DNA of 33,167 nucleotides, taken from assembly GCA_013152585.1 (NCBI GenBank), contig JAADGC010000055.1, positions 1 to 33,167 of the forward strand, given 5' to 3'. This stretch comes from Chloroflexota bacterium (GTDB taxonomy: Bacteria > Chloroflexota > Anaerolineae > J102). The notes below the pieces were generated by a model. It was not told the DNA's origin. It was given only the letters and a program-made list of their open reading frames with translations, and ran no database searches. The translations under genes were made by a program, and so were the position numbers. Below, in pieces: positions 20,267 through 29,128 of the stretch (position 1 is the stretch's first letter; each line of letters starts with the position of its first letter).

Positions 20267-23200
20267 TTATGAGTTTTGGCGTTGGATGCCAATCGTCAGC
20301 GGTACCCCCTCGATCTTGTGTTGTTCGACAAAAGCGCTGTCTGGCGCCCCTGCCACGTGCAATTGATCGCTGAGGGTTTCTGCCTGGATGGTGTCGCCCC
20401 AGGCGGCTAGAGTGGCGTTCAGCTCCGGGTCGTCGGTCTGCACCCAGGTGATGATGTGGTCGGCAATGTTGAAGCCGGCGTTCTTGCGCATGGCCTGAAT
20501 GCGGCGCACCACTTCGCGGGCCTTGCCTTCGGAGATCAGCTCGGGTGTAAGCACGGCGTCGATGCCAACGGTGACGACCTTGTCTGCAGCCACGGCCAGA
20601 CCGGCGGCCGGTTCTGTCTGCACCAGGATTTCCCGGGCAGCCAGCTCGACTTCTCGTCCGTCCAGGGGCACGACGACGACCTCTCCGGCCTGCACCCGGG
20701 CAGCAACCTCATCCGCCGGCAGGGCAGCGAGGGCCGAGCGGACTTGAGGGAAATCTTTGCCCAGTTTGGGGCCGAGCAGACGGTTGTTGGGTAGCACCCG
20801 AAACGAGACCAGTTGGCCGGGGTCCGAGACGAATTCGATAGCCTTGACGTTGAGCTCATCGGCGATGATTTCCAGGAATTCCCGGCCCAGGGCCTGGCGC
20901 CCGGCCTGCACATGCACGAGTATTTTAGCCAAAGGCTGGCGCACACGCAAGTTGGCATGACTGCGGGCGCTGAGCCCCTGACTGGTGATGCTGCGGGCCA
21001 GCGCCATCTGCTCCATGAGATTGCTGTCGATCACCGCCAGATCGGCCTGGGGCCAGTCGGTGTGATGGACGCTTTCGCGAGCAGTGGCCTGCACCGAGTG
21101 CACCAGATTCTGGTACATGACTTCGGTGACAAAGGGCATGATAGGCGCCAGGGTGCGGATCAGCTTGACGAGGACGTGATAGAGGGTGGCATAAGCCTGC
21201 TCTTTGTCGGCGTCGAGTTCGCTCTTCCAGAAACGGCGACGGCTGCGGCGCACATACCAGTTGGTCAGGTCTTCGAGCAGGGCTTCCAGCACCAACGTGG
21301 CTGCAAAGGCGTCGGAGTTCTCCAGGTTTTCGGTCACGCGGGCGACTACATCGTTCAGGCGCGCCAGAATCCATTGGTCCAGGGGGTTGCCGACGGCCGG
21401 GGTATGCCCCTCGGGGTGGGCCGGATCAAAGGTGGGGAAACGGGGACTCCAGTCGTCGAGGGCGGCATAGGTGATGAAGAAGTTGTACACATTCCACAGG
21501 GGGATCAACACCCGGCGTCGCGCCTCGTCGGCTTTCTGGTAGCCAAAAAGTAAGTTGTTTTCGGGCTTGTGCGCCGCATACAGCCAGCGCATCACGTCCA
21601 CGCCCATCTTATCGGCAGCCTCGTTGAATTCGATAGAATTGCCCCAGCTCTTGTGCATTTCCTGGCCATCTTCGGCCAGTAACGAGGCGTAGCCAAAGTT
21701 CTGCAGGAACGGCGGCGAGTTGTCGATCACGGTGGCCATGGCCAGCAGACTGTAGAACCAGTTGCGGAATTGGCCCGGGAACGATTCGCTGATCCAGGCT
21801 GCGGGATACCACTGGCGCCAGTAGTCCGGGTCGCTACGATAGCGCAGGGTGCTGAAGGGCACGACACCGGCATCGAGCCAGGGACTGCCCACGTCGGGGA
21901 TGCGGTGCATGACGCCGCCGCAGTGCGGGCATTTGAGTTTGACCGCATCGATAAAGGGCCGGTGCGGCGTGTGCCCGGCAAGTTCGTCCCCACCGGCAAT
22001 GGCCCGCTCATGCAGTTCGTGTTCGTCGCCCACCACATGGTACTGGTCGCAATCTTCGCACACCCAGAAGGGCAACGCCAGCCCCCAATAGCGCTTTTTG
22101 GAGATCATCCAATCGTGCATGTTGCGCAACCAGTCCAGCTCGCGGGCGTGTCCGAAATCAGGAATCCAGCGGATCTGGTCGACCACATCCATGATTTGGT
22201 AGCGCAGGCTGCGTTCTTTTTCGGCGGGCGTGACCTCTGAGCGGGGCTTGTCGTACAGCTCGCCCATGCTGATGAACCATTCGTCCACCAGGCGGAATAC
22301 CAGCTCGGTGCCGCAGCGCCAGCAGGTGGGGTAGCGGTGGCTGTAGTCGGTCACCCGATAGAGAATGCCTTTCTGCTGCAGGTCGGCGAAGATATCGGAT
22401 GCCACATCGGCCACATGCCGACCGTTGAGCCAGCCGAAGCCGTCCTCGAAACGGCTATCTTCATTGAGCGGGGCGATGATGGGGAAGTCTCTGTCTTTGC
22501 CCAAGTGATAGTCCTCGGCGCCGCAGCCAGGGGCAATGTGCACAATGCCCGTGCCTTCGGCTTCACCCACATCTTCCCACAGGATGACCTGATGCGTGTC
22601 GGCGGCGGTGCGACCTTGACCGATCTCGAGCTGGGACAGGGGATGGAAGCCGCCGGCTTGTTGGGCGGCCGGCAGATCATCGAAGGGGCCGTCGTAGCTC
22701 CAGCCTTCCATATCCCGACCTTTGAGCTCAGCCAGCACTTCGACCTCGCCCTGCAACATGTGCAAAGTGCCCTTCGACAAATACAGCACGTGTTCGCCGT
22801 TGCGAACCTTGACATAATCGAGATCCGGCCCCACGGCAGCAGCGACGTTGCTGGTCAGCGTCCACGGCGTGGTCGTCCACACCAGCAGCGATTCGCCCGG
22901 TCGTTCCCGCAGGGGCAGACGCAGGGTGATACTGCGATGCGTGATTTCTTTGTAGCCGTCGGTGACGATTTCGTGCTGGCTGATGCCGGTGGCGCAGCGG
23001 GGGCACCAGGGCATGACATCGGCGCCCTGATAGAGCCAGCCTTTCTGCCACACCTTCTTGAGGAAGGTCCAGATCATATAATTGTTTTCGGTGGAGAAGG
23101 TGTAGTAGCTGCCGCCCAACTCAGCTAATCCCAGGCGCCCGACAATGCCCTCCACAGTGTCGGTGACAGGTCCTTCTGGCCCCTCAACCGTGATGATCTG

Positions 23201-23689
23201 CGCCGAATCTTCGAGCAGTTTGTCGGCCAGCCAGCGCAACTGGTCTGTATCATTCCAGTCCATCCAATAACCCAGCCGTATAGATTGTGCGGTCTGCACA
23301 GCCGAATAGCGCAGGACGCGGGCCTTGCAGCGGCGCACGAAGGGTTCCAGACCATAAGCCTCGATATCCTTCTTGGATTTGAAACCGAATTCTTTTTCGA
23401 CCTCGACCTCGACCCACAGGCCCTGGCAGTCGAATCCATTTTGATAGCGAAGTTCGTGCCCACGCATGGCCCAATAGCGATTGTAAAGGTCTTTGTAACT
23501 ACGACCCCAACCGTGGTGCACGCCCATGGGGTTGTTGGCAGTGATGGGGCCGTCGATAAAGGACCACTTGGGTTGGCCTTTGCGCAACTGGCGCAATTTT
23601 TGGAAGGCCTTGCTTTCTTTCCAGAAATCAAGCACCTCATGTTCTTGTTGGATGAAGTCCACGTTGGACGGGACTGGTTGAAATGGCAT
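20267..23689 (-). CDS. ileS: isoleucyl-tRNA synthetase, divergent class I signatures
   Basis: Charges tRNA-Ile with isoleucine. The protein has 1140 residues, with AGGAG eight bases before ATG 23689. The HIGH box is HHGW (58-61, in PMGVHHGWGRSYKD). The KMSKS box is replaced by EMHKSWGN (about 676-683), so the first Lys-Met-Ser is altered but the K-S core is kept. An editing (CP1) region contains TTPWTLTSN. Four CxxC pairs (CPRC, CWRC, CEDC, CPHC) may bind zinc. The C-terminus has the helical anticodon-binding part. Overall order fits IleRS rather than Val/LeuRS, but the altered signatures mark a separate clade. A weak promoter may lie at 23690-23770. Confidence 0.85.
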   Translation of the reverse strand: MPFQPVPSNVDFIQQEHEVLDFWKESKAFQKLRQLRKGQPKWSFIDGPITANNPMGVHHGWGRSYKDLYNRYWAMRGHELRYQNGFDCQGLWVEVEVEKEFGFKSKKDIEAYGLEPFVRRCKARVLRYSAVQTAQSIRLGYWMDWNDTDQLRWLADKLLEDSAQIITVEGPEGPVTDTVEGIVGRLGLAELGGSYYTFSTENNYMIWTFLKKVWQKGWLYQGADVMPWCPRCATGISQHEIVTDGYKEITHRSITLRLPLRERPGESLLVWTTTPWTLTSNVAAAVGPDLDYVKVRNGEHVLYLSKGTLHMLQGEVEVLAELKGRDMEGWSYDGPFDDLPAAQQAGGFHPLSQLEIGQGRTAADTHQVILWEDVGEAEGTGIVHIAPGCGAEDYHLGKDRDFPIIAPLNEDSRFEDGFGWLNGRHVADVASDIFADLQQKGILYRVTDYSHRYPTCWRCGTELVFRLVDEWFISMGELYDKPRSEVTPAEKERSLRYQIMDVVDQIRWIPDFGHARELDWLRNMHDWMISKKRYWGLALPFWVCEDCDQYHVVGDEHELHERAIAGGDELAGHTPHRPFIDAVKLKCPHCGGVMHRIPDVGSPWLDAGVVPFSTLRYRSDPDYWRQWYPAAWISESFPGQFRNWFYSLLAMATVIDNSPPFLQNFGYASLLAEDGQEMHKSWGNSIEFNEAADKMGVDVMRWLYAAHKPENNLLFGYQKADEARRRVLIPLWNVYNFFITYAALDDWSPRFPTFDPAHPEGHTPAVGNPLDQWILARLNDVVARVTENLENSDAFAATLVLEALLEDLTNWYVRRSRRRFWKSELDADKEQAYATLYHVLVKLIRTLAPIMPFVTEVMYQNLVHSVQATARESVHHTDWPQADLAVIDSNLMEQMALARSITSQGLSARSHANLRVRQPLAKILVHVQAGRQALGREFLEIIADELNVKAIEFVSDPGQLVSFRVLPNNRLLGPKLGKDFPQVRSALAALPADEVAARVQAGEVVVVPLDGREVELAAREILVQTEPAAGLAVAADKVVTVGIDAVLTPELISEGKAREVVRRIQAMRKNAGFNIADHIITWVQTDDPELNATLAAWGDTIQAETLSDQLHVAGAPDSAFVEQHKIEGVPLTIGIQRQNS

Positions 23690-23860
23690 ATAGCTTCTCC
23701 TAAAACCGGCTGTGCCGGGAAAGGGTCAGTATGATCAAGTGTGGGTCGCTGATGGTATAATAACAGATGTGCAATGAATCGTTCTCAACAGGTGTATCAC
23801 ATGCGTATGGCAGTACAAATTCATTGGCTATGGATTTTCAGATGGGGCTGTTGGCGGTTG

Positions 23861-24598
23861 TTAAGCTTCTGCAAGGGCACCGGGGGCCGGCACCCGAAGG
23901 GCAATATAAATGCGTTTGTTGATGGCGCCTTTGGATTTGTAATTGACGACTTCGATGCCGCCCACCTCGGAGGTGTTGGCCACATGGGTGCCGCCATCCG
24001 CCTGTAAGTCCAGGCCTTCCAGCGCCACGGTGCGTATTTCCTGGATGCCCGGGGGCAGAAGATTGATTTTGGTGCGAATGAGGTCGGGGATTTGGAAGGC
24101 TGCGGCACGGGGTAAGATTTTCACATGCACGGGGCGGGCTGCCGCCACCTCGGTGTTGCATTTGGCCTCGATCTCGCCCACCAGGTCTTTGTGCAGGCTG
24201 GCGAATTCGAAGTCCATGCGGCCTTTACCGGGCTCCATGTTGCCGCCCGTGACCTGGGCGCCGTAATCCCGCCAGACCACGCCGCAGAGGATGTGCAGGG
24301 CGGTGTGTGTACGCATGAGAGCGTAGCGTCGTTCCCAATCGAGCTCGCCATGCAGGGTGTCGCCCACGGCAGGCAGGCCGTCGCCGCTGAGCCAGTGCCA
24401 GACGGTGCCAGCTTCTTTTTTGACTTTCGTCACTTGCCAGGCGCCGAGCTGACCCCGATCGTGGGGCTGACCGCCACCGCCGGGGTAAAACGCAGTGCGA
24501 TCGAGAGCCACGCGGCCCTGTTCAGCATCAACAGCCATAACCGTGGCGTCGAATTCACGCAGGTAGGAATTGGTTTGGTATAATAGTGTAGTGGACAT
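23861..24598 (-). CDS. alanyl-tRNA editing protein (AlaX-like)
   Basis: Free-standing relative of the AlaRS editing domain, expected to remove serine (or glycine) from mischarged tRNA-Ala. Of 245 residues, the N-terminal half has the glycine-rich DRTAFYPGGGGQPHDRG loop. The zinc site shows HTALH (H98, H102) and DGGTH (D201, H205). The residue that is usually Cys in CGGTH is Asp here. The gene lies 171 bases before ileS on the same strand, suggesting a translation-fidelity pair. A T-box leader points at it from about 580 bases upstream, with a toxin-antitoxin pair in between on the other strand. Confidence 0.85.
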   Translation of the reverse strand: MSTTLLYQTNSYLREFDATVMAVDAEQGRVALDRTAFYPGGGGQPHDRGQLGAWQVTKVKKEAGTVWHWLSGDGLPAVGDTLHGELDWERRYALMRTHTALHILCGVVWRDYGAQVTGGNMEPGKGRMDFEFASLHKDLVGEIEAKCNTEVAAARPVHVKILPRAAAFQIPDLIRTKINLLPPGIQEIRTVALEGLDLQADGGTHVANTSEVGGIEVVNYKSKGAINKRIYIALRVPAPGALAEA

Positions 24599-24667
24599 GA
24601 TGATGTTTCGGATGGTAGAATAAATAGAGAAATTTAAGGACTCTCTCTTGATGGTGGAAATCAGCCG

Positions 24668-24874
24668 ATGCAGATTGTTTCAACAATTGATGAAAAGAAA
24701 ACCAAAGATTTGCTTAAGGCAGCACTTGTGGAGCTGATGGAAGAAAACCCAGATGCATTTTCGCAAGCTGTCATCCAGGCAATGCAGGAGGTCGGATTAG
24801 CCAGGGCCATTCGGGAAGGAAGGCAGGATGATTTCATCGATGAAAAGGAAGTCTTTAGTATCCTGGAAAATTAG
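24668..24874 (+). CDS. RelB-like antitoxin
   Basis: Small acidic protein of 68 residues, two bases upstream of a RelE-type toxin, the usual order of type II modules. Helical throughout; the C-terminal ARAIREGRQDDFIDEKEVFSIL resembles the toxin-binding end of RelB/Phd-like antitoxins. No clear DNA-binding fold is visible, so autoregulation is uncertain. The Shine-Dalgarno sequence is weak. It is antisense to the presumed T-box read-through transcript. Confidence 0.65.
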   Translation: MQIVSTIDEKKTKDLLKAALVELMEENPDAFSQAVIQAMQEVGLARAIREGRQDDFIDEKEVFSILEN

Positions 24875-24876
24875 GA

Positions 24877-25143
24877 ATGAAGGTACTATTCGAGAGGAGT
24901 TTTGCCAAAGATCTACGGGCCCTAAAAGACCGAAAGCTGTATGGGCGAGTGTCGCAGACGATAGCTGAGGTGAAGCTTGCCCATGACTTGAGCGAAGTCA
25001 AACAGCTAACAAAGCTTAAGGGCTACAGCAGCTTCTACCGAATACGTGTGGGCAATTATCGCATCGGCATGGAGGTGCTAGAAGATACGGCGATTTTTGT
25101 CAGGATTTTGCATCGGAAGGATATTTACCGCTTCTTTCCTTGA
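24877..25143 (+). CDS. RelE/ParE-family toxin
   Basis: Basic protein of 88 residues. It opens with MKVLFERSFAKDLRALKD and has the core LTKLKGYSSFYRIRVGNYRIG and the end FVRILHRKDIYRFFP, all typical of RelE/ParE toxins. In the RelE branch these cleave mRNA in the ribosomal A site; conserved basic residues are present (R62-like in YRIRVG, R82-like in LHRKD). The gene follows the antitoxin after 2 bases and ends 35 bases before the T-box terminator on the opposite strand. Confidence 0.8.
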   Translation: MKVLFERSFAKDLRALKDRKLYGRVSQTIAEVKLAHDLSEVKQLTKLKGYSSFYRIRVGNYRIGMEVLEDTAIFVRILHRKDIYRFFP

Positions 25144-25177
25144 TGGTTGGATGGTTTCGATAGGACGTGTGTAAAAT

Positions 25178-25211
25178 AAAAAACGCCTCCGTCCTTGCAG
25201 GGACGAAAGCG
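25178..25211 (-). terminator. intrinsic terminator of the T-box leader
   Basis: On the minus strand CGCTTTCGTCC pairs along its full length (with three G-U/T-G pairs) with GGACGGAGGCG around CTGCAA, followed by six T residues. This is the off-state hairpin, alternative to an antiterminator that includes the T-box bulge. Confidence 0.85.
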
Positions 25212-25478
25212 TAACTTCCGCGGTGCCACCCTGGTTCGGCGCATGTCAACACGCCGCACTCTGTGGAAGACCATCATCTCCCCGTGGTTGCTAACGGGCC
25301 ACGAGACCGGTCGCGCTTAGTGAGTGCACACACGGACAAACACTGTTCGGCTGACAGCTCCGGAGGGATTTTCGGCGGGGGTCAGACGTTCGGCTTACAC
25401 CATCCCGAACTCGCTGGGTCTGGTTGAGACCCGACTACTCGTCTCCATCGATGCTTTTACGGTGGATATGTTGCTTAA
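25178..25478 (-). ncRNA. T-box riboswitch leader
   Basis: tRNA-sensing leader on the minus strand. The conserved T-box AGGGTGGCACCGCGG lies at about 25219-25233, just before the terminator. Stem I is recognisable near 25370-25460: GACGAGTAG carries an AGTA loop-E half, the distal loop is TTCGG-GATGGTGTAAG-CCGAA with the conserved GGTG-N-AAG, and on the 3' side GCCGAAAATCCCTCC holds the specifier loop (GAA, then AAUCC). The specifier can be read AUC (Ile) or UCC (Ser). The bulge UGGC would pair with a tRNA whose discriminator is G, which fits Ser and not a typical tRNA-Ile. The nearest same-strand genes are alaX and ileS, beyond the opposite-strand toxin-antitoxin pair. Confidence 0.88.
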
Positions 25479-25484
25479 CATAGG

Positions 25485-25513
25485 ATGTTATCATGTTTGG
25501 GATAATGTGTCAA
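25485..25513 (-). promoter_or_regulatory. promoter of the T-box leader
   Basis: On the minus strand TTGACA (25513-25508) and TAACAT (25490-25485) are separated by 17 bases. Transcription would start near 25478, just before Stem I. Confidence 0.65.
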
Positions 25514-25530
25514 ATACGGGGTTGATTCGG

Positions 25531-25629
25531 GGGTGCGTCCCCGGAAATTGGGCGTAAGGTTGGAGGTGGCGCTGCGGCGCATCACGGATGCGCCGAGCGC
25601 TTGCTCACGAGCCGGATTCGCAATCCGGC
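25531..25629 (+). repeat. composite repeat, copy 1 (72-bp direct repeat plus palindromes)
   Basis: The first 72 bases (25531-25602) match 29013-29084 with four differences. They contain the perfect palindrome GGCGCATCACGGATGCGCC (25576-25594). A second palindrome, GCCGGATTCGCAATCCGGC, follows at 25611-25629. The copy lies just downstream of the dynamin-like gene; the other copy lies upstream of its partner gene. Confidence 0.85.
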
Positions 25630-28966: not shown

Positions 28967-28996
28967 ATTATAGCATCTTATGGTAAATGCAAACAA
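28967..28996 (-). promoter_or_regulatory. promoter of the uncharacterised gene/dynamin unit
   Basis: On the minus strand TTGTTT (28996-28991) and a perfect TATAAT (28972-28967) are separated by 18 bases, about 40 bases before the start at 28923. The direct repeat copy 2 begins 16 bases upstream of the -35 box. Confidence 0.6.
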
Positions 28997-29012
28997 GATG
29001 GGCTGGAGAGGC

Positions 29013-29128
29013 GGGTGCGTCCCCGGAATTTGGGCGGTAGGTTGGAGGTGGCACTGCGGCGCATCACGGATGCGCCGAGCGCTTCATTTTTTCGTGTGTT
29101 GGCCGCATCCATGATCCGGCTAACACAC
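29013..29128 (+). repeat. composite repeat, copy 2 (72-bp direct repeat plus palindromes)
   Basis: Bases 29013-29084 match 25531-25602 with four differences and contain GGCGCATCACGGATGCGCC at 29058-29076. A long imperfect palindrome follows (29094-29128; outer arms GTGTGTT and AACACAC, inner GCCG and CGGC). The second palindrome differs in sequence from that of copy 1 but has the same layout. Confidence 0.85.

Follow-up and report, generated by a model that had tools for sequence, protein, structure and literature searches.

Riboswitches that act in antisense form a recognised class, in which two cases are proven, the SAM riboswitch at ubiG-mccB-mccA of C. acetobutylicum and the cobalamin riboswitch antisense to Listeria pocR (PMC9943018). 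Predicted antisense-acting T-boxes number 107 of 15,851, which is not an enrichment over expectation (P = 1.00; PMC9943018). The same survey places in its group f a T-box of Bacillus thuringiensis YBT-1518 in which an antisense transposase gene lies between the leader and a tryptophan transporter gene (PMC9943018). Antisense transcription over a toxin-antitoxin locus has been described for relBE2-asRelE2 of M. tuberculosis, where the antisense RNA is a dedicated one, controlled by Crp and acting through RNase III (PMC9325379). In Chloroflexi, namely in Dehalococcoides, a T-box upstream of ileS is on record (PMC2494555), and TumE-TumA has been described as a toxin-antitoxin superfamily (PMC10584680).

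The locus analysed here lies in a 33,167-nt stretch of DNA from an uncultured Chloroflexota bacterium, referred to below as the window. A complete leader, including promoter and terminator, spans 25513-25173 on the minus strand. It comprises a consensus promoter with an extended -10 element (TG; TTGACA-17-TAACAT, 25485-25513), a T-box (RF00230, 25196-25460) and an intrinsic terminator (25173-25212), in which the hairpin at 25212-25183 has a 12-bp stem followed by TTTTTTATTTT. In an Rfam search, RF00230 matched positions 25460-25196 over the whole model at 94.9 bits (E = 2.9e-21), just above the gathering score of 93, and the T-box was the only Rfam hit in the region. The original prediction of a full, leftward-transcribed T-box with its own promoter and terminator is thereby confirmed. 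The specifier is the isoleucine codon AUC (25369-25367), which fits the operon described below and is invariant across the alaX-linked T-boxes of nine aligned genomes. The T-box bulge (25220-25235, minus strand) reads UGGC in the window's genome (G000), in its genus-mate (G001) and in G003, and UGGU in the other leaders checked. The tRNA-Ile discriminator is A (A73) in two family members, and pattern searches found no tRNA-Ile(GAU) gene in the window's own genome. The bulge is a point against the T-box control proposed below; as a sign of decoupling it was considered and rejected, since G003 has UGGC without a RelBE pair.

Seven T-boxes were found in the window's genome. One of them (L007; G000:C150:356-695) scores 56.9 bits, below the cut-off, and precedes a branched-chain aminotransferase-like frame named by eye; it encloses a complete tRNA-Ala(GGC) gene at 539-614, and a tRNA-Ala(CGC) gene lies just upstream at 252-326. 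Additionally, a repeat with the palindrome GGCGCATCACGGATGCGCC occurs in the window at 25530-25602, just upstream of the T-box promoter, and at 28971-29084. Allowing up to 2 mismatches, this repeat has 148 places in the window's genome, 31 in the genus-mate, 1 in G003 and none in G005.

The T-box is followed on the same strand by two confirmed genes, alaX, encoding an AlaXM-type alanyl-tRNA editing protein (23861-24598, start at 24598), and the isoleucyl-tRNA synthetase gene ileS (20267-23689). About 575 nt without a minus-strand gene separate the end of the T-run (about 25173) from the alaX ATG, in line with the earlier statement that alaX is the first same-strand gene, some 580 bases on. This interval holds two plus-strand genes spaced by 2 nt, a spacing also found in the genus-mate, with the antitoxin gene directly upstream of the toxin gene. 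The first encodes a RelB-like antitoxin of 68 aa (24668-24874; PF25734 RelB_like_antitoxin, 1.1e-13) and the second an 88-aa toxin of the RelE/ParE superfamily (24877-25143; PF05016 ParE_toxin, 2.9e-9), which aligns over its whole length with the solved RelE3 (3bpq, 2.1e-20). The RelE_StbE match (NCBIfam) of the toxin fell below the cut-off. A promoter of the pair's own, TGGACA-18-TAGAAT with TG (24592-24621, plus strand), scores 10/12 in both the window and the genus-mate, and its -35 box overlaps the alaX start codon. The claim of a RelB/RelE pair opposite the T-box therefore holds in that an intact pair with its own promoter occupies 24668-25143 of the plus strand, and needs amending in that the strongest curated match of the toxin is to the RelE/ParE superfamily and not to RelE proper. 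Since no plus-strand terminator was found 3' of the toxin gene, transcripts of the pair probably continue into the T-box. With the toxin stop at 25143 (plus) and the T-run ending near 25173 (minus), the riboswitch sits on the 3' side of the toxin gene and is transcribed towards it in antisense.

Relatives lacking the pair carry the T-box either 9-200 nt ahead of an alaX gene with ileS behind it, or immediately in front of ileS. This assigns the T-box to alaX-ileS and identifies the pair as an insertion; for the same reason, the possibility that the T-box is the leader of another gene was discarded. Of the two readings originally put forward, insertion of the pair into a leader-gene junction is thus well supported. 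The comparison of related genomes that had been proposed with it revealed the T-box directly before alaX or ileS without the pair, and not a different gene always following the T-box. Other genes also occur in these gaps. GNAT acetyltransferase genes separate T-box and alaX, in the orientation of the operon, in three other members of the class (L021:983-1474, L031:517-1485 and a by-eye frame in L025), and from this position they should be T-box-controlled. T-box and ileS are separated by an operon-strand gene for a 23S rRNA-intervening-sequence-type protein at L253:1070-1432 and by a matching frame in L258; the two loci belong to genus g6 (G016 and G015), and the family was assigned by a scan of the L253 protein.

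The genus-mate (L009/L068, isolate Dive96_bin3.165) is the single other genome of the genus compared. It carries the same pair in the same place, on the same strand and at near-equal spacing, and this repetition of the layout in an independently assembled genome rules out an assembly artefact. The pair proteins are 81% identical between the two genomes, with a dN of about 0.1 and differences mainly at third positions; for the toxin, dN/dS is about 0.06 by NG86 and about 0.1 by other methods. These estimates, at about 0.1 or lower, indicate purifying selection on the pair. The leader is likewise conserved: 36 of 45 scored T-box pairs are unchanged, standard pairing is found in the genus-mate at 6 of the 9 changed ones, and the terminator stem persists, its one G-to-A change leaving the pair intact. 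The T-box promoter there reads TTGACA-17-TAGCAT and the pair's promoter TAGACA-18-TAGAAT. Decay of the T-box after the insertion is consequently not supported, and both leader and pair have remained under selection since then. Differences at fourfold sites amount to 29/46 for the pair, 38/113 for alaX and 30/73 for a dynamin-like gene; as dS is near saturation and the counts are small, we retain a single ancestral insertion despite the larger share in the pair.

Given the observed anatomy, conservation, ancestral arrangement, selection on both parts and lack of any other predicted promoter, we consider it likely that this is an alaX-ileS operon under an isoleucine T-box, which still controls it across an antisense RelB/RelE-like insert between terminator and alaX. 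An autonomous pair with its own promoter would have entered the junction in an ancestor of the genus. Under this proposal, uncharged tRNA-Ile would lead to bypass of the terminator, after which RNA polymerase would traverse about 575 nt opposite the entire pair before reaching alaX and ileS. The simplest and likeliest reading of expression is accordingly T-box read-through, with a predicted leader of about 0.9 kb whose last 575 nt would cover the full antisense of the pair. Within the limits of a scan for sigma-70-type consensus sites (threshold 9/12), the stretch from the antitoxin start to alaX yielded no minus-strand promoter in the window or in the genus-mate. The T-box had been described as cut off from alaX-ileS; this is not supported, given the retention of T-box, terminator stem and promoter in both species and the lack of a predicted replacement promoter for alaX.

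The main way in which the read-through reading could fail concerns the pair's own promoter. Its TAGAATA reads TATTCTA on the operon strand, and the conserved block around the -10 box has this form in both species, so that a weak bidirectional promoter for alaX is conceivable. The pair might then have brought the promoter that now drives alaX-ileS, leaving the T-box to yield only a terminated leader RNA. The short distance of about 70 nt from antitoxin start to alaX start would suit such an origin; however, the TATTCTA site has no -35-like box on the operon strand, any hexamer pair there scores at most 8/12, and the T-box, its terminator and its promoter are still conserved in both species. We regard this uncoupled arrangement as quite improbable.

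The second original reading, a long antisense read-through RNA that ties starvation to toxin output, would follow physically from continued use of the T-box promoter for the operon, as we prefer. As this RNA would cover both genes of the pair in antisense, some mutual exclusion of read-through and relBE transcription is to be expected, through convergent polymerases and sense-antisense RNA. Passage of the polymerase across the pair is itself inferred, as are the direction and magnitude of any effect on toxin output: interference may leave less antitoxin and free toxin, or it may silence the pair. On these grounds, isoleucine starvation may plausibly be coupled to the toxin at the level of regulation.

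Whether such coupling has been selected can be weighed across the family. Of 20 family genomes, 10 carry a toxin-antitoxin pair, or its visible 5' end, in antisense within the T-box-(alaX)-ileS operon, and 8 have ileS without an antisense pair before it or before alaX; G009 and G012 fall in neither group, which gives 18 resolved genomes. Antisense TumA/TumE pairs lie between alaX and ileS in G002 and G005, and G006 and G010 have theirs immediately behind the T-box, ahead of ileS. They are also present in G014, where the contig begins inside the gap so that no T-box is visible, and in L079, where the gene downstream shares only 33% identity with the ileS of the window. What appears to be the same TumA 5' end with its promoter is seen at a contig edge in G019. 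Other types were also encountered: a TumA/AF2212-like gene with a short frame lacking a family match in G003, an antisense DUF6036 nucleotidyltransferase pair in G017, whose promoter is near-identical to that of the TumAE pairs in G010 and G014, and antisense PIN/AF2212-like pairs in L115 and L098. A promoter in antisense immediately preceding the operon gene was seen in each of the 10 pair-bearing genomes and in 0 of the 9 valid pair-free ones (G013, whose slice fell inside ileS, was left out), so that its most likely role is to drive the pair; as the genomes are related, no Fisher value is attached to this contrast.

All six intact TumE proteins linked to ileS group in a single clade (support 100/99), apart from other TumE copies in the same genomes, and their identities are mostly 48-67%, plus one pair at 91%. 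This deep clade shows that a pair became nested in the operon early in the family and was retained by several genera. In the genus-mate, the TumE frame is apparently broken, as its Pfam match lies in a different frame from the first part. The window holds a 74-nt remnant of the promoter and 5' end of the genus-mate's antisense TumA/TumE pair (23755-23828, recorded on the minus strand, 70% identity), which scores above all 200 shuffles. TumAE has thus decayed in the window's genus, where a different pair, RelBE, is now present one gene upstream.

The orientation of these inserts bears on the two readings of function. At least five antisense lineages occur in the operon, namely RelBE, TumAE, the nucleotidyltransferase pair and the PIN pairs of L115 and L098, and the same-strand toxin-antitoxin cases are two, MazF-like (L074) and DUF433/DUF5615 (L083). 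All further genes identified in these gaps (GNAT, HHH, 23S-IVP and unnamed proteins) have the orientation of the operon. Counted as lineages, the antisense to same-strand ratio is 5:2 for toxin-antitoxin pairs and 0:7 for other inserts (Fisher p = 0.02), from a small, rough and partly hand-made count. Elsewhere in these genomes, crude gene calling at about 20 further TumE loci showed only one that is clearly antisense to both of its neighbours.

A selfish pair may simply have inserted by chance and been tolerated, the transcript overlap having no consequence worth selecting. This reading is compatible with continued T-box control and denies only a selected function; we hold it to be a serious possibility that stops somewhat short of probable. 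In its favour, pairs come and go in the operon, and none of 20 scanned loci with homologues of the window's toxin elsewhere in the class lies near a T-box; a general T-box linkage of such toxins was rejected on the same count. The persistence of the TumAE clade beside ileS across several genera argues against mere tolerance, as does the frequency of antisense orientation among toxin-antitoxin inserts and its absence among the others, with the caveat that this was a rough hand count.

Alternatively, read-through during isoleucine starvation could be a functional antisense regulator of the pair, for example by shutting off new antitoxin so that toxin is freed, or by silencing the pair. This too is compatible with the proposed operon control and adds a selected function to it. 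It is favoured by the recurrence of antisense pairs in the operon (the ileS-tied TumA/TumE clade, RelBE, the nucleotidyltransferase pair of G017 and the PIN/AF2212-like pairs of L115 and L098), by the presence of RelBE in a genus where TumAE decayed and by the single clearly antisense case among the other TumE loci, and antisense control of a RelBE locus has a precedent in M. tuberculosis (PMC9325379). Nevertheless, the 8 of 20 family genomes without a pair indicate that it is not required for the operon, pairs decay (the scar in the window's genome and the broken TumE of its genus-mate), and antisense-acting T-boxes are not enriched in the published survey (107 among 15,851, P = 1.00; PMC9943018). 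Selected coupling is put forward tentatively, as somewhat unlikely. Extended to the whole family, it would mean that antisense pairs are kept as a starvation switch, in which uncharged tRNA-Ile triggers read-through that supplies IleRS and blocks new antitoxin and toxin, a decayed pair being replaced on the same strand; this wider version we consider doubtful.

Should read-through cross the pair, the geometry of the DNA would wire a tRNA-charging sensor to a toxin-antitoxin system and, if true, provide a direct link from amino-acid starvation to toxin output that bypasses ppGpp and proteases. The relatives form a natural comparison set, in which the same T-box and synthetase occur with RelBE, with TumAE, with another pair or with none. 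Persistence of the pair and recurrence in relatives lift the finding above an ordinary insertion, although the 8 of 18 resolved genomes without a pair weigh against this.

As in the known antisense-acting riboswitches (PMC9943018), read-through from a riboswitch leader would run antisense into an opposed gene; unlike in those systems, it would here continue into the riboswitch's own canonical operon, with uncharged tRNA as the ligand and a toxin-antitoxin pair as the antisense target. The YBT-1518 T-box shares a mobile-type gene lying antisense between T-box and normal target, whereas the insert here is an intact toxin-antitoxin pair, kept by two species under purifying selection, with other pairs recurring among relatives. 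With relBE2-asRelE2 the locus shares a convergent, here candidate, antisense RNA over a type II RelBE-type locus, but the candidate RNA is the T-box-gated leader of a synthetase operon. The Dehalococcoides example provides T-box control of isoleucyl-tRNA synthetase in the same phylum, and the available part of that source (PMC2494555) does not mention antisense genes between leader and synthetase. Similarly, the antisense pairs upstream of ileS in relatives belong to the TumE-TumA superfamily, for which a T-box-ileS linkage was not seen in the available part of PMC10584680. A description of the T-box-relBE combination was not found in the literature searched. Each element is thus known; what is new is a T-box-gated operon with a conserved antisense toxin-antitoxin pair, together with the succession of such pairs.
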